Assembly: GCA_009192285.1 (NCBI GenBank)
Contig: WBVU01000005.1
Location: 2,932,731 to 2,996,730, forward strand
From: Morchella semilibera
Lineage: Eukaryota > Ascomycota > Pezizomycetes > Pezizales > Morchellaceae
Direction of reading: 5' to 3'
DNA length: 64,000 nt
The notes under the pieces were generated by a model. That model saw nothing but the letters and a program-made list of their open reading frames with translations. It made no database searches and was not told where the DNA came from. Made by a program: the position numbers and the translations under genes. Positions 51,909-60,215 of the stretch are shown here, in pieces (the first letter of the stretch is position 1; every line of letters begins with the position of its first letter).

Positions 51909-53744
51909 TATATCTGTTGTTGTTGTTGTCGTTGTTGTTTTTGCTGCGGTTGGAACTTTTTTTTTAAGAGAAAGAAAAATTTGGGTTGTGCTGCAGACGG
52001 AGGTTGCCGTATGTGTGCAGCTGGGGCTTCTGACTGGTTACCCTGCCTGTCTGTTGTTATCGGTATGCCGAGCTGTCAGAGAGCTCGGCAATCCGTGTTA
52101 TCTTGACAGACAGCGACGCACCAAATCCCTCGCGTGCAGAGATGCGGTACAACCCACAGGCTGCATATCGTACATTCCTATCCACATGTTCACTAATCCA
52201 ACCAACCAGAGTAAGTACCTACATAGCATCTGGCTGGCCGAGGCCCATATCAGGTAGAGTATGTGGTAGAAAGTAAACTGTAGACTGTAAGTAGACACCA
52301 GTAGCAGCCACCCTTGTACCTAATATTATTACGCAAACAGAACCCAGAGTCATCCAGCAAAAGACCAATCGGATTATTGTGTCCAAAGCCCCCTCCCCCC
52401 GTGGGTCTTATCATTGCGGTCTTCCCACCAGAGTAAACTACCTGTTTATCTACCGTAGAGTGGATAGAACAGAGTAAAGTTACGCGCACCAGAGAGCGAG
52501 GAAACATAGCGCGACCAATCCCGATCATTGAGTTGACGGCGATATCCATTTCCTACATACCACAACATTGTAGGGTAATACGGAGAAGGATCAATCATTC
52601 CAATCACGTGGCTCCGAATTTTTTGGACAAAAATATCACTGGCACAACCCCACGAATCATTTCCACTTTGGCACCCTTGGCTCACTCTGTCCATCCACTG
52701 ACATCGTTCCATTCCAGACAGAAGCAAGAATTTTTTTTTTTTTAAGTTTTCCTATCCAAGTAACATCTCCCCTCCCTAATTGCAAGCAAGCTTCTGTAAC
52801 ACGTCTCCCAACCATAAAGGCCAGCTAGCGCTAGAGTAGGCACTCAGGGCGGCAGGGTAAGGAGTAGGGGCCCGCTAAACTCTCCCCACAGACGCCAAAA
52901 GAAATAATAAAGGGCCAAAAAAAACCCACCGGCCTACCCCCGACGCTTCCCCCGCATCCCCATCAACTCACCAAGTATCTAGTCTTTTTTCTTTCTTTCT
53001 AGCCGCCCCTTCACGGGCGGGCCAGCGATGAGGCGGCTTATTTTTTCTACCGCTTTTTTTTTTTTTCGCTCGATGGGCCCCAGGGACGGGTAAAAGATCA
53101 ACGGGTAAGTAGACAGCACTACGTAAAAGGATACGTAAAATAGAGAAAAGGACGGCCCAAGAGCGAGAGAGAGGAAAACACCAAGACCGATCGTGTGAAT
53201 ATATCCGGCCACATATATCCCATCTACCAGATCAGATCGGTTGATCTGCGATTGGCTGACTGTAGGCAGAGTAGAGCGAGTAGAGGAGAGGTGGGGTCGC
53301 TGCTCGCTTAAAAGAGACGAGTAGATTTGTAGAAAATATAAAAAATATAAAAGTAAAATAGAAGAGGGGAAAAAGAAAAAAAGAACCCGATTTCCGAATT
53401 TGACGGATTCTCGGTTCAGCTGATTGACTCTGTATCTCCGGCCGGAGATGGACTGGCGGGTGCTTCAGAAGTGAAAGAAGAAGAAAAAAGAGAGAGAGAA
53501 AGGGAGAAAATAAAAGGATAACCGTGGTGGAAAAAACTACCTCCTATGTAGTGAAAGGCTGTGAAACCGTTTCCGACAACAAGGTTTTTTTTCTCTGTGA
53601 TACCTTCTAGTGTCCCACTATCAGCAAAACACTGATAACTTTGTACGATCGGGAGCTTTGATCCCATCCGCGACATCGCACAAAAGCTAAATCCAAAACC
53701 AAAGTCAAAATAAAACTCCCCCCCCCCCCCGCATTAATGACTCT
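51909..53744. other. intergenic region next to the transposon
   Basis: I see no gene. It includes the promoter of dbp4 (a TTG/TTC-type trinucleotide run just upstream of its start, about 51917-51940), poly-T and poly-A runs near 52730-52743 and 53055-53066, and a purine-rich tract at about 53455-53520. A C-run at about 53718-53730 lies just outside the transposon. Confidence 0.55.
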
Positions 53745-53750
53745 GGGCTG
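53745..53750. repeat. left target-site duplication GGGCTG
   Basis: GGGCTG lies directly outside the left terminal repeat and is repeated in the same orientation directly outside the right one (60210-60215). Confidence 0.8.
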
Positions 53751-53782
53751 TACGGCGGCTTAAGCCTACAAAAGTACATTTT
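53751..53782 (+). repeat. left terminal inverted repeat
   Basis: The 32-bp sequence begins TACGGCGGCTTAAGCC and ends ACAAAAGTACATTTT. It matches the reverse complement of 60178-60209 at 27 of 32 positions, the differences being confined to positions 11-16. Confidence 0.85.
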
Positions 53783-54021
53783 GCGGCTTGAGGCTGGCGA
53801 ACATCGCTTACTATATTGATATGTAAAAAATCAATTTCGCTTTGTTGACAGGCATATAGAATCAATTAAGTGGAGTTCAGGGAACAAATTCAAGAATAGT
53901 ATATATGAATTGCTCATCTTGTTATAGTTGGCATTTTGGGTGCGAAGATACATGTATATAGCTACAGCTCTAGATTAGAGCTTCACGATCCTCACTTCAA
54001 CCTCAACCACCAATTGCCATC

Positions 54022-54152
54022 CTGCGACCCTGCGACCTCGACCTTGCGCGACCCCGCGACCCCGCGACCCCACGATCCGCGACCTCAGCCTTGCAGTTTT
54101 GACTTGCGACCTCGACCTTTGCGACCCAATATCTGCGACCCAATATATATGA
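54022..54152 (+). repeat. GCGACC subterminal minisatellite
   Basis: More than ten units of the type TGCGACC or CGCGACCC, with variants CTCGACC, lie about 270 bp inside the left end, in the non-coding part before the first gene. Subterminal arrays are often transposase-binding sites; no such role is shown here. Confidence 0.75.
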
Positions 54153-54250
54153 CCTAGAGTTATTATCCATATACCTGATGACTTAGCCTATTGACTGGAC
54201 ATATGTATGTATGACTTAATAATTTAATGCTTTACTAATTGATTATAGAA

Positions 54251-55574
54251 ATGCCGGAAGCCTTCACCTATTTTGATATGCAGCGTATGATTGCTGCTCA
54301 GGTGCCCTCTGGAAGTTATCATTTGCAAATTCATTGGAGGTGGCACCGGAAAGATGATAAAACAATACAAAACCAACATCTCCTACCTATTCCTACCTCT
54401 ACCGGCAGCACCAAAACTATTTATAATTCCTTTGATTTTAAAGGAAGTGATGTAAAGTTTTGGGGAAAGGCTTTGGGTTGTCCAATCGGTAGCAACAATC
54501 GGTGGCTAAGAGTCCAGTTTGCTCTTCATGGTCATGCTTTACCAGTTACAAGAGCCGAGTATGATGATATGGTTCAGAGTTGGGAAGTACTTCCCACAGT
54601 TGGGGTTACAATAATTGCAGCTGCAATAGTGGGTGAAGACATGTGTGTCATATTTGTTGACAGAAACCGTCTTATGACATTGACAGTCATTGACACATCT
54701 GTTGGTACTGGTATCCCTTGGTACGATACTACATTGGCACCATGTCCTATTCAATGTCCGAGTCAATTCCAGGAAAATTTGATCAATTCCAAAGCGTTGA
54801 AAACCCTCCAGACAAGAACAGCTCCGATATATAAGGAAATGACTGATCCTACCAAAAATCATTTTTGGAATGGTATCGGTACCAGTCATGCTGTTGAAAT
54901 ACTGCACCGAGCACTCATCCACCCTGAAACAAAAACCTGCGACATATTTGGATCAAAAACTTTGGAGGTTAGGAATAGATTTTTGAACGCAATTCAAGAA
55001 TTTTTTGCAATTGCTGGATCGGACGAATACCTTCAACGAGTACCAGCTAATGGGACATCAAAACATTGTTTTGAATTCTCACCTGCTGTAACAAGATACA
55101 TCAATGAACAATTTTACCAAAGCTTATCGAAAGTCAACTACCTTAGTCAACTATACCGATTACAATTACCTATTTACCAACAACCTATTGTCACCGGAGT
55201 CAAAGGGATTACCTGATGGTTGGGAAACAAATCTTTTAACAAATACAGGACGGGAGAGAAAAAAAATTGTACCAATTTATACAATAGAATTTAGAAGCAA
55301 AAATAAGTTGATTTTAGGTAGTGGTTCTAGTAAGTATTCTTATACCTGCATTTTTAAACAGCCTGATAATTCGAAGGGAATAATATTATCAAGAAAGAGA
55401 AGGAATTTGACAGCGGATGGTAATACAGCAGAAATTGGAATAGCTAGTTTTATGGATACAATTAGGGAGATTAGAGAACGAGGGAAGCTGACAAAAATGA
55501 AAAGTCATCGAGTATCTATTAAGACAGGAAAGGTTGGTAGACCAATTAAGCGGAGGAAAAGTTTAAAAGATTAA
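54251..55574 (+). CDS. transposon gene 1, unrecognised protein with C-terminal basic tail
   Basis: I do not recognise this protein. One frame runs from ATG 54251 (MPEAFTYFDMQRMIAAQVPS) to a stop at 55216, about 321 residues. A second frame, protein-like and without a plausible separate start, continues to 55574 and adds about 118 residues. Joining them needs a +1 shift or one-base indel close to AAAGGG (55203-55208), or an intron I cannot place. The first part has several tryptophans (HWRWHRK, WGKALG) and a hydrophobic VGVTIIAAAIVGEDM. The last part is basic and ends KVGRPIKRRKSLK, which contains a GRP core like an AT-hook and could be a nuclear localisation signal. A possible 44-bp leader intron (GTATGT at 54205 to AG at 54248) precedes the ATG. 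The gene ends 35 bp from the opposing gene. Confidence 0.6.
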
Positions 55575-55608
55575 AAATATTTGTATTACTAGTATGTACT
55601 TCAAAAAT

Positions 55609-56960
55609 TTAGTTATCTTTACCACACATACGAGCCATTCTTCTAGTAGTTATAGATGACTTGAATACTGTTCCCCCAGCCAAGTTCGAAGTAAGTCCTT
55701 CATTACTTTCAACCGTTTGAGACCCAACACCTGGTACGATTATTTCGGAAATGTCAGAAAGGTCAGACACTGGCGGTGAAGATCTCAAATCCGAATTCAT
55801 TGGAACAGTCAATGGTGTTTTTGATACTTCGGAACAAGTTGTTTTCCCCTTTCTTCTTAATGTAGGTAATCCTTCAGAGCAAACTTTCTTCCTACTTCTT
55901 TGCAATGTAGGTGATGCTTCAATACTACCTTCGGTGGATGATTCAATTTGGATCTATTTCGAGTTAAAATAGTACAAAAAAATATAATATTGGTAAATAT
56001 TTACCTCATCTTCGTTCTTTGTTTTGTTGGTAAAGCTATCTGATGCTCGACGTTTGAGTGCATTAAGAAATTTGTGGCTCTCAATGTTTTCCTTTTTGAT
56101 GTTTTCGATACTCTGTAACTCGGTTTGATATTTGACAACTATAAATATCTTTGTCGAAGAACCACCAGGAAAGTCTAAAAGAAAATCCGCAACAGTAATA
56201 GGTCCATTTCGTACTTCTAAACGGTGTGGTCCTTCCTTCGAGTGAAATTGAGTGGCTAAAATAATTTGGTATATATCCAAATGCTCTGCCTTGATTGCAT
56301 CAACCCAGTTCGGGGAAGAGCTGAGGAGCATGAAGGAGAAATCGGAAAAATCTGTGATGATTTCATCAAGGTCTTCAAATACCTTTGATGATACACCTAT
56401 ATAAAAGTTAAAATCAAATATCACAGGTACAAACTTTGCAACTTACCTAGGTTTTTGTAACATGACCACTTATCCGTAATCGAACCAGCATAAATAACTA
56501 TTTTTCGAGAATCTCTAGCTGCTGTCTTTTTCTTTGTCTCTCGAGATGAAGATTCCGTTAATGCTGGAACTAAACCATATTTTGATGAAATCTTTTCTGA
56601 ATTCCCTTCTTTCATAGATTTAGCAATTGAGTTTTTACGATACAATTCGACAGTATCTCTGGCTGTTAACACACCTATTTTGACAGATGGCTCAGTGCCT
56701 GTTGTTGGACTGGATAAAAGAATAATAGTTTCGGGGTTTGCATCTTTACTCTTTCTTTTCTCAATCCGTTTTTGCTTGGTAAAACCAGTTCCGTTACCAG
56801 AATTTGAAGCTTCGGGCTTGAATAGAGATTTTGAGGAAGATATGTATAGATTTGAGGGGACTCTCTCGCCACAACAACGAAAGATCAGGTCTCTTGTTTT
56901 CCGATGAATCGTTCGTTCTCGTACAGGACAAAATTCAATAGGAGGGATTTCTGTTGACAT
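55609..56960 (-). CDS. transposon gene 2, unrecognised three-exon protein
   Basis: Three exons on the minus strand (56960-56447, 56396-56005, 55953-55609) with clean GTAAGT or GTAAAT donors and ATAG acceptors give 416 aa, all in frame. It starts MSTEIPPIEFCPVRERTIHR. The first 170 residues are serine- and lysine-rich and probably disordered. The middle exon is more globular (VFEDLDEIITDFSDFSFMLL, then NWVDAIKAEHLDIYQIILAT and VADFLLDFPGGSSTKIFIVV). The last exon is serine-rich with RRMARM near the C-terminus. I know no family with this arrangement. Because the gene is intact and lies between the terminal repeats, it is probably an accessory protein of the transposon, which is inference. Its start faces the transposase start 838 bp away, so the two may share a promoter region. 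Confidence 0.7.
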
Positions 56961-57798
56961 TGTAGGAGATAAAATCAAAAGAAAGAGAGATAATATAAAA
57001 CTGAAATTAAATAGAATTGGAATTTGAAGATGTTATAATCGAACAAGAGAAATGACAAGAAATGAAACTGTTATATATTATCGTTAATTCTGTCACGGTA
57101 TAAATTTTCAGTGTTTATTAATTATAAATATAGCAAATATCTAAAAGAAATTATAAAAATTTACCAAAACTCCAATATGATTTTGTTTGTACACTGATAC
57201 CAAAACTAGTTAGTGTTTCCGACAGATTTATGAAAATGAGTTAATATGAGTCAATATTGCAAACACGAATAGAAACCTATAGATACCAACAGAATTTTAA
57301 AAACAACAACCAACAATTATTCCAACAGTTGAGTAATTTTAGTACACTATGAGACATAACATAGTACCACCCGAAATTTTGCTTTACACTACTCCAAACA
57401 ATTTTTTCATTGGCTCGGAGAAGCAAATACTGAAGATCTTGATCCCTACTGTGACTATATAGCCGTCGGAGCGAATAAAATATTACGTAGAAATAGTATA
57501 AACAAGGTTGATTACATTGCAGCTCATTCTTCGGCATTTTATTATACAATATAGTTTGTATTCTATTCTATTTGGTATCTCTTACCGAGCTAATATGTTG
57601 TACAACAAACAATTTGATATCTTATTTAATAACGTTTCACAATTAATTATTGAAATTATTTTATCCTGTTATGTTTATTTTCTTAAAAGAAATGGTATAC
57701 AATACTTTCCGCATAGGTTTAAACAATATCAATCATTTTTTTGTTTTGGCTACCTTTACTTTACTTTCTCTTTCTATATTCTAAGCAATCGCATCGAA
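56961..57798. other. divergent AT-rich spacer inside the transposon
   Basis: This 838-bp stretch separates gene 2 (leftward) from the transposase (rightward) and most likely holds both promoters. Open frames in it lack credible starts or domains. The transposase frame is open back to 57508, but the chosen ATG at 57799 precedes the conserved helix-turn-helix. Confidence 0.55.
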
Positions 57799-59626
57799 AT
57801 GTCGAGATTTCCAGTTAGCCAAGTATTGGAACAACAAAAACAACACTTACATACTCTTTATATTAACGAAAACCATACAATCAAAGAAATATTGCAGATT
57901 CTCCACGATCAAAATATCAAATGCTCACGTATATCATTACTAAAGAAATTCAAAGAATGGTCATTTACCAAAAATAAACGAAGTGAAGATACATCATCTC
58001 TCCGGGTCGAAATCGCTTATTTATTTTGGAAGCGGTGTTTAAGTGATCAGAAAATATTACGGGTATGTATAAAAACTGGATTTTAAATGTAGAAAATTTG
58101 ATATTAACATTATATAGATATTGCAAATGAATGGATATAAAATTGAGATTCGCCGTTTAGTTCAGATACGGAAATCTATGGGAATGTATCGAAGACAAAC
58201 CAATCAATCGGAAAATGCAGATTTGAGAATACAGAGTATTATAGAGAAAGAGTTGGAGAAAGGTAATATTACTCTGTCTGGTCGACGTTCTGTATGGGTA
58301 CATCTTCGAAATATGGGTATTTTGGCTACACAGTAAGTATAATTATTACTAAAACTTTTTAATCTATTTATGAATATAATTCTTACATTAGGAAAAGTGA
58401 TCAAATTGGCAGAGCCCTGAAAGTTGTCGACCCTATTGGAGTTCAAAACCGATTGAATGGAGTAAATCGTCATCATGCGGAATTTGTTTGCCCAGGACCT
58501 AATTGGTGTTGGTCTATTGATGGACATCTGAAATTACAGATGTTTGGTATTGAGATATATGCAGCTATCGATTCTTATTCCCGTTATATAACATGGTTCT
58601 ATTGTGGTGTTTCTTCTAAGACTGGAATCAGCGTTTTAAGTCAATTCTTGAAAGTAATTCAAGAACAAAATTGTTTACCTTTACATATTCGTTCAGATAG
58701 AGGTTCCGAAACAATGTTGTTAGCAGAATCTTTCTGGAGACTTCATAAAATAGCCACCCCTGCTGTGACTTTTCCTGAAGTCTTTTGGTATGGAACCTCT
58801 ACAAGAAATGTAAGAATCGAGAGCTGGTGGAGTCAGTTGACCAAAGGAGCTACAACAGATTGGAAGGTATATTATCTTTCTTAACAAATATATAAAATGA
58901 AATTTATATTAACTTCGATAATATAGAGATATTTTAGAACCCTTCAGAATGAGCAATTCTTTCATGAAGATAGTATTGCAGATACGATCGCATTACTTTT
59001 TGTTTATTTACCTATCATCAGAGAAAAACTTCATCAATTTGTGGAAAACTGGAATAATCACAAAATACGAAAGCAAAACAACAGACCCAATCTTCCTACT
59101 GGTGAACCCTATTATAATTACTATTACCCACCTAATGGAATCATCAATTATCAGAAACCTCCTTCTAACGAATCGATAATTGAAATACGAAATGATAAAT
59201 TACGAAATATACAAACGAATGAATTATATGGTATATAGTTACCAAAACTGACTATCAATAGTTAATTTACAAATACTGATATATGTTCTAATAGATCACG
59301 ACTCTTATCTTCCCTTATCCACAATGGATTATTGTCATCAAATACTCAACAGAGGCGGATATCCAACCAAAGTGTCATACGAGGATTTAATGCCAAATGG
59401 TAGTAAAACTCATCGCATAATATACCTTTTTTTAAGGGTACATTTAGCTAGACATATAAGTAACGGAAATCTCAATCCAATATTAAGTTTAATTCCTAAA
59501 CCAAAGGAAGTACGATCCATTGATAATAGAAGACAAAACGAAAGGGAAGTAGAATTCTTTGGCGAGGATGAATCAGATATTACGGACAACGAAATTAGCG
59601 GTGAAGAAGATTCAGAGAATGAATAG
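57799..59626 (+). CDS. DDE integrase-type transposase with Clr5-like helix-turn-helix
   Basis: Five exons (57799-58062, 58118-58332, 58392-58866, 58927-59230, 59295-59626), with introns of 55-64 bp in matching phases, give 529 aa. Residues about 10-58 (HTLYINENHTIKEILQILHD, then LLKKFKEWSFTKNKR) resemble the fungal Clr5 helix-turn-helix. The RNase-H-like integrase core has all three acidic residues: D203 in CWSIDGHLKL, D262 in HIRSDRGSET and E303 in RNVRIESWW, about 40 residues separating the last two. After the core comes FVENWNNHKIRKQNNRPNLP and PTGEPYYNYYYPPNG, a C-terminal pattern seen in this integrase group. The tail is acidic (FFGEDESDITDNEIS). No stop or frameshift is present, so the enzyme looks intact. 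It would cut the terminal repeats and join them to target DNA. Confidence 0.85.
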
Positions 59627-59814
59627 CTATATTTGTTTATCAGATTAGTAATTGTTACTTTCATATATATGTAACGGTAATACTTTGATTAATATTTTAT
59701 TGCTGTTTGAATCATTTATAAACAGTAATATGATTATGATGCGTTAGATAATGTTCTATTCATGAAGCCTCGAAAGTTTTTATCAACCATTCCCGGCAGG
59801 CATATATAGCTGCG

Positions 59815-59900
59815 GGTGAGGGCACAACACTCTTCCCGCTTAGGTGGGCACAACAACACCCTTCCCGCTTAGATGGGCACAACACCCTTCTCGCCACCCT
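59815..59900 (+). repeat. GGGCACAACA-type subterminal repeats
   Basis: Three degenerate units (GTGAGGGCACAACAC..CTTCCCGCTTA, GGTGGGCACAACAACACCC.., GATGGGCACAACACCC..) of about 27 bp lie about 300 bp inside the right end. They are unlike the GCGACC array at the left end. Confidence 0.65.
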
Positions 59901-60177
59901 TCCCCCTCCCGCTTATCAGATACTATACCGCGAGTTTATCAAATACAGCTAATTCGGCATAATAGTACATATAATCCTATAGCCTAATGTTAGCGATTTT
60001 ACTTCATTTCGATTTCAGCATTCTAGATGTAATCAATCTAATTACAAGTAAATAATAAGAGAAATTTATAATTGTAATAATAAATAGTTCTTTATTTATT
60101 CTATTCAATATATTTTTATTTTCTCTAAGGTTTAGGGGTTTTGCATTTTGGTGCGTCATGCACTATCGCTCCACTAA

Positions 60178-60209
60178 AAAATGTACTTTTGTAAATATGA
60201 GCCGCCGTA
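60178..60209 (-). repeat. right terminal inverted repeat
   Basis: The 32-bp sequence ends GAGCCGCCGTA and is the inverted partner of 53751-53782 (27 of 32 identical). Confidence 0.85.
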
Positions 60210-60215
60210 GGGCTG
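60210..60215. repeat. right target-site duplication GGGCTG
   Basis: This is the second direct copy of the 6-bp flank, adjacent to the right terminal repeat. Confidence 0.8.

Follow-up and report, generated by a model that had tools for sequence, protein, structure and literature searches.

The 64,000-nucleotide stretch of Morchella semilibera DNA analysed here (the window; contig WBVU01000005.1) contains a DNA transposon of 6459 bp (53751-60209), which carries, besides its transposase gene, a gene for a predicted DNA glycosylase of the Fpg/Nei type. The element is bounded by 32-bp terminal inverted repeats (TIRs) that match at 27 of 32 positions after reverse complementing, and the hexamer GGGCTG is duplicated directly outside both ends. 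Its features, in order, are:

53745-53750, no strand: left target site duplication, GGGCTG
53751-53782, forward: left TIR, TACGGCGGCT...TACAAAAGTACATTTT
54251-55574, forward: gene 1 (open reading frame ORF1), predicted Fpg/Nei (NEIL1-like) DNA glycosylase with an MPE start; frameshifted, running from 54251 to 55216 and then in another frame to 55574
55609-56960, reverse: gene 2 (ORF2), 416 aa; exons 56960-56447, 56396-56005 and 55953-55609, with predicted introns
57799-59238, forward: gene 3, transposase, 421 aa; exons 57799-58062, 58118-58332, 58392-58866 and 58927-59238, with predicted introns
59324-59626, forward: gene 4 (ORF4), 100 aa, with an acidic C-terminus
59699-59966, reverse: dispersed repeat of ~195 bp, present as a diverged copy within the 3' noncoding part and of no family-diagnostic value
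60178-60209, reverse: right TIR, 27/32 to the left one
60210-60215, no strand: right target site duplication, GGGCTG

Borders and copies of the element

Within the window, this is the sole pair of ends that combines a perfect 6-bp flanking duplication with at least 24 of 32 matches within 20 kb. In first-order Markov shuffles of the window, where the first two bases were also required to pair, none of 1268 reaches 27 matches, and the highest value is 23. A search of the genome (56.8 Mb in 23 contigs, labelled C1, C5, C9 and so on) yields a second full copy at C5:1842521-1849019, which is 98.7% identical. Its first and last bases are exactly those of the window copy, its flanks are unrelated, and it has a 6-bp duplication of its own, CACGAC. 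The two copies are separated by 38 substitutions (25 transitions and 13 transversions) and 48 gap columns, the majority of which fall in two length-variable tracts. The terminal pattern (up to three mismatches) occurs four times in the genome, all within these two copies, and the same scan reveals no solo ends or non-autonomous derivatives. A search for an empty site with the left flank of each copy shows both flanks to be unique in the genome, so that no second allele was found.

The original prediction, made from the letters of the window, proposed a genuine DNA transposon with these ends and suggested looking for full copies that share them. The ends, the controls and the second copy all agree with this, and homology does not continue past the borders. 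The description as an intact element with three genes has to be amended, since four open reading frames are present and a frameshift interrupts gene 1 in the window copy; in the C5 copy gene 1 is open over 440 codons (440 aa).

The composition of the whole element is host-like, with no shift of the kind expected from repeat-induced point mutation (RIP) relative to the rest of the window. About 20 bases left of the element, at 53718-53730, are 13 consecutive C residues. Further copies of the ~195-bp repeat are found on C12/C13, C9/C10 and C1 (loci L006 and L008 were compared). The contig pairs C9/C10 and C12/C13 give matches at nearly equal coordinates and in this resemble haplotype or duplicate contigs.

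The transposase and its superfamily

The spliced transposase is 421 aa long in both copies, has the catalytic residues D203, D262 and E303, and matches in Pfam the rva_4 integrase core (1.3e-33) and an N-terminal Clr5 domain (2.4e-8), with rve also matched; the integrase-core DDE transposase first proposed for this locus is thereby confirmed. Four residues differ in the C5 transposase, and one of these changes hits a position fully conserved across a 19-row alignment. The best-matching transposase belongs to Morchella importuna (73%). NCBIfam models give hits that fall far short of their cut-offs: IS481 for the protein itself (0.00077) and, for three homologues, IS3 (1.4e-5 to 5.8e-10) as well as IS481. 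Sequence searches of the PDB return no transposase relatives for the single protein and six weak, unrelated matches for an alignment query.

Complete IS3EU families are described, in the available text of one paper, as having TA..TA ends and usually 6-bp duplications (PMC10045372), and fungal IS3EU elements that carry a TET gene (TET+) as having TIRs longer than 30 bp with TAYGG..CCRTA ends (PMC12730594, as far as its available text goes). Both copies of the present element have TA..TA termini, as originally noted, with 6-bp duplications (GGGCTG and CACGAC) and 32-bp TIRs of the form TACGG..CCGTA. The DDE core is of the rve type, its first D (D203) lies within 100-300 residues of the N-terminus, and the Pfam scan of the spliced transposase finds no integrase zinc-binding (HHCC) domain. 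Because the ends, the duplication and the transposase domain type all fit, we consider the element, on its sequence, to be almost certainly a cut-and-paste DNA transposon of the IS3EU superfamily, and not the representative of an undescribed superfamily; the original prediction had thought an undescribed fungal family possible.

That it might instead belong to a new superfamily, or be a reduced Polinton or Ginger, appears extremely improbable. Similarity to the named prokaryotic transposase models is low and our tree includes no named IS3EU sequence, which would leave some room for a separate superfamily, but ends, duplication length and transposase type all agree with IS3EU. A Polinton/Maverick was rejected, as it had been from the letters alone, because Pfam scans of genes 1-4 show no protein-primed DNA polymerase B or capsid genes. 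Ginger1 and Ginger2 have an integrase-type HHCC domain before the core; they were rejected since Pfam finds none in the spliced transposase, which has the N-terminal Clr5 domain instead.

Among described elements, the IS3EU families of PMC10045372 share the TA..TA termini, the 6-bp duplication, a first D about 200 residues from the N-terminus and no reported HHCC domain, whereas an Fpg/Nei or JmjC gene goes unmentioned in the text available. The TET+ IS3EU elements of rust fungi and Tuber indicum (Kojima, PMC12730594, available text) share the TIRs of more than 30 bp with TAYGG..CCRTA ends and the 6-bp duplication, and likewise carry an extra gene for cytosine-mark removal. In these, TET/JBP lies between the transposase and an alpha-kinase gene, whereas the window family has Fpg/Nei and another Morchella family (on C15, below) has JmjC; Pfam reports no alpha-kinase in the window element. 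Styx of Zymoseptoria (PMC10853768) shares, according to the text available, an IS3EU derivation, several open reading frames, a 36-bp TIR and 6-bp duplications, and differs in being 7.9 kb long and encoding transposase, GATA, CCHC and DUF3577 proteins.

Gene 1 and the slot genes of sister elements

Gene 1 is one of two proteins that had been called unassignable, and we are highly confident, from profiles and a structure model, that it is a divergent member of the Fpg/Nei family, with a predicted DNA glycosylase/AP lyase activity. The MPE N-terminus (Pro2 and Glu3) is present in all 12 rows that reach this position, although internal to a longer gene model in P0054, and the active-site Lys, aligned to MutM Lys57, is present in 11 of the 12. 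Pro2 and Glu3 are the predicted catalytic residues; their roles are described for NEIL1 in the source text available. An H2TH domain is found by profiles and in the structure model, and structural alignments to Fpg/Nei glycosylases cover model residues 1-374, with no four-cysteine finger seen and no residue assigned as the catalytic Arg of a zinc or zincless finger. For the alignment of the N-terminal half, shuffles reach up to 16.8 versus 27.1. Gene 1 thus shares with NEIL1, Fpg and endonuclease VIII the fold, the MPE N-terminus, the Lys and the H2TH domain, and differs from them in its low identity (~15%), GIGT in place of GIGN, no visible four-cysteine finger, its transposon-encoded nature and a long basic C-terminal tail. 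The AT-hook-like GRPxK sequence of this tail is conserved, and one of 20 members matches Pfam AT_hook (0.061).

Homologues of gene 1 occur in several fungal genera, and a Tuber indicum gene model (P0051) joins one to an rva_4 transposase. Among gene 1 relatives, divergence at third codon positions is 0.63 versus 0.35 and 0.34, and 0.58 versus 0.27 and 0.21, which indicates, at the level of sequence comparison, selection on the protein. Two relatives in the same genome, L053 (C1:5075868-5077091) and L054 (C16:923906-925294), are ~60% and ~54% identical over the compared parts; both are relic-like, with no transposase match in their 9.9-kb loci. The host's own canonical Fpg gene (C3:2457424-2457944; MPE start, GVGN H2TH motif) is distinct from gene 1. 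Viral contigs searched for relatives gave 10 pattern matches, none of which is one.

The genome has rva_4 matches at 13 places, and ends and duplications were recovered for four lineages besides the window family:

C9:31405-37811 (L052:2906-9312), 6407 bp: TIR 29/30, duplication GGACGT, plus an additional base on the left side
C15:887298-894633 (L050 and L065), 7336 bp: TIR 30/30, ACCAAC twice
C1:5438958-5445281 (L066 and L051), 6324 bp: TIR 29/30, GGTAAG twice
C1:5211163-5214901, degraded, 3739 bp: TIR 24/30, duplication 5/6

We use the term slot for the outermost gene 5' of the transposase on the transposase strand. In the window family, the slot holds the Fpg/Nei gene. In the C9 element it holds a TET/JBP gene (PF12851, 2.6e-5), and C10 has the same at the same gene coordinates. 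In the C15 element it holds a JmjC gene, matched above the cut-off on two ORF pieces (3.1e-11 and 5e-8), for one of which the PDB leaders are a 2-oxoglutarate oxygenase (2.4e-10) and KDM4D (2.7e-10). In the C1:5438958 element the slot gene is divergent and TET-like (PF12851, 0.0078; best in the PDB Naegleria Tet, 0.05; blastp to the C9 gene, 3.7e-8). Overall, a candidate eraser occupies the slot in five of the seven transposase lineages examined, and none is shown in the other two. The order of slot gene, opposite-strand gene 2 and transposase is identical in the window, C15 and C1:5438958 elements; no gene 2 relative was matched in C9.

In the transposase tree, the window sequence pairs with M. 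importuna P0001 (100/98), next to a pair formed by C15 and C1 (97/93), and these make a clade of four at 100/100; C9 and C5 are placed elsewhere. Slot genes were compared for the window, C15 and C1 members of this clade. Because three different slot genes thus stand within one tight transposase clade, it is quite likely, as judged from the sequences, that the slot gene has been exchanged between sister families.

The sister elements have some features of their own. The C9 element looks like a TET+ IS3EU and has TACGG ends, and its visible transposase frame has N for the first catalytic D. The C15 element also has gene 2-like and gene 4-like ORFs, as well as several subterminal repeats of a AGGGAAGGACTAGAC unit, inverted between the two ends. 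Family F (C1:1867k, C1:2368k, C2:2766k, C2:2819k and C3:2143k) consists of very divergent rva_4 transposases on a long branch; two compared copies are ~97% alike, with TATGG at one end and the other end not found. Weak transposase-like fragments lie at C12:1537144 and C13:1535987.

Gene 2, the other protein left without assignment, is 416 aa in both copies and indeed has no Pfam family above cut-off; NCBIfam gives none for its homologue P0062, and the PDB one weak match (E 0.66). Judged by eye, it has a Cys/His-rich N-terminus and an IILLSSP stretch that resembles a SUMO-interacting motif (SIM). Five homologues were found, in M. conica, M. importuna (two), M. sextelata and one non-named sample. 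In M. importuna, a gene 2 homologue (LAJ45_08977) and a transposase homologue (LAJ45_08978) have consecutive locus tags. Relatives of gene 4 lie 3' of the transposase at two loci, C15 and C1:5211163.

A possible anti-silencing role

From the ends, duplications and DDE residues observed in two copies, we infer a chemistry in which the transposase would bind to the 32-bp ends, cleave the DNA at TA..TA and integrate the element through a 6-bp staggered cut. Gene 1 would excise oxidised or otherwise modified cytosines, acting either directly or after the TET/JBP enzymes of sister transposons in the same nucleus, and base-excision repair would then restore unmodified C. Since the slot of sister families holds TET/JBP or KDM4-like JmjC erasers, we somewhat favour the reading that gene 1 is an anti-silencing eraser of host marks. 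The genome contains 11 TET/JBP matches, four of them above the cut-off and two the C9/C10 pair; together with gene 1, the parts for oxidation followed by excision are therefore present. According to the available source text, human NEIL1 excises 5-carboxylcytosine (5caC) directly and stimulates TDG on 5-formylcytosine (5fC) and 5caC, with its mode of action debated. Kojima suggests, in the available text, that transposon TET/JBP genes counter methylation-based silencing (PMC12730594), and silencing of transposons by DNA methylation is reported, again in the text available, for Tuber melanosporum, also of the Pezizales (PMC4165359).

An IS3EU element with a glycosylase in an exchangeable anti-silencing slot is, as a whole, the best explanation of these data, and we regard it as fairly probable. 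We lean slightly towards a further pair of statements, which are assessed jointly: that the slot is an exchangeable eraser slot, with TET/JBP oxidation of 5-methylcytosine, NEIL1-like excision and KDM4-like JmjC histone demethylation as its alternatives, and that the families together would supply in trans an oxidation-plus-excision route of DNA demethylation run by parasites.

Several points weigh against this explanation. As single sequences, neither the window ORF1 nor the C5 copy has a Pfam glycosylase domain; the best Pfam match of the C5 copy is a sub-cut-off PV_NSP1 (0.00094, residues 282-349), and on its own it reaches NEIL1 in the PDB only at E 0.056. The match of the N-terminal half alone is modest (local 16%, E 0.0016; global 36%, E 6.6e-5). 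Nearly all gene 1 members have Thr instead of Asn in the GIGN motif of the H2TH domain, so that substrate range and efficiency may differ, and the window copy of the gene is frameshifted. Gene 1 alone has a CpG observed/expected ratio of 0.57 versus 0.78 in the rest of the window, and this could reflect past methylation and CpG loss despite gene 1. The TET matches of slot genes are below the Pfam cut-off. The degraded C1:5211163 element has no ORF longer than 103 aa, and its two scanned pieces are transposase only; in the one family F copy scanned out of five, five ORFs yield transposase domains and one weak match. Gene 1 remnants are found next to one family F copy (L057), in a region that it does not have in common with another F copy. 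Lastly, the tree holds rva_4 homologues only and no named IS3EU, so that membership is judged by structure and domain type.

An active glycosylase that, instead of erasing silencing marks, assists transposition repair or shields the element from base damage or deamination such as RIP-like editing would match the fold and active site of a repair enzyme; moreover, the host keeps its own canonical Fpg, so the extra one may have a special task. We nevertheless consider this unlikely, since sister elements hold TET/JBP and JmjC genes in this slot, and these have no evident part in transposition repair. A non-catalytic gene 1, which would act through its H2TH domain and basic GRPxK tail as a DNA-binding accessory of the transposase, is suggested by the change of GIGN to GIGT and by the conserved tail, but is more doubtful still, because the Pro2, Glu3 and Lys described above would be unneeded by a mere binder. 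A chance capture of gene 1, as a passenger of no benefit to the element, is very improbable given its homologues in several genera, the joined Tuber indicum model and the codon-position divergence.

TET/JBP genes are already known from fungal transposons, where their role is a matter of proposals. On the sequence evidence, the apparent novelty here is an Fpg/Nei gene as cargo, which sister families seem to have exchanged for other eraser genes; among the open-licence PMC matches listed, in their available text, there is no report of a transposon-borne Fpg/Nei or JmjC gene. If the anti-silencing reading is true, a NEIL1-type glycosylase in the slot of a sister element would be the missing second step after TET/JBP, and the KDM4-like gene in a third sister would point to silencing marks as the common target. 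Self-demethylation by transposons would thereby become a directly testable question.

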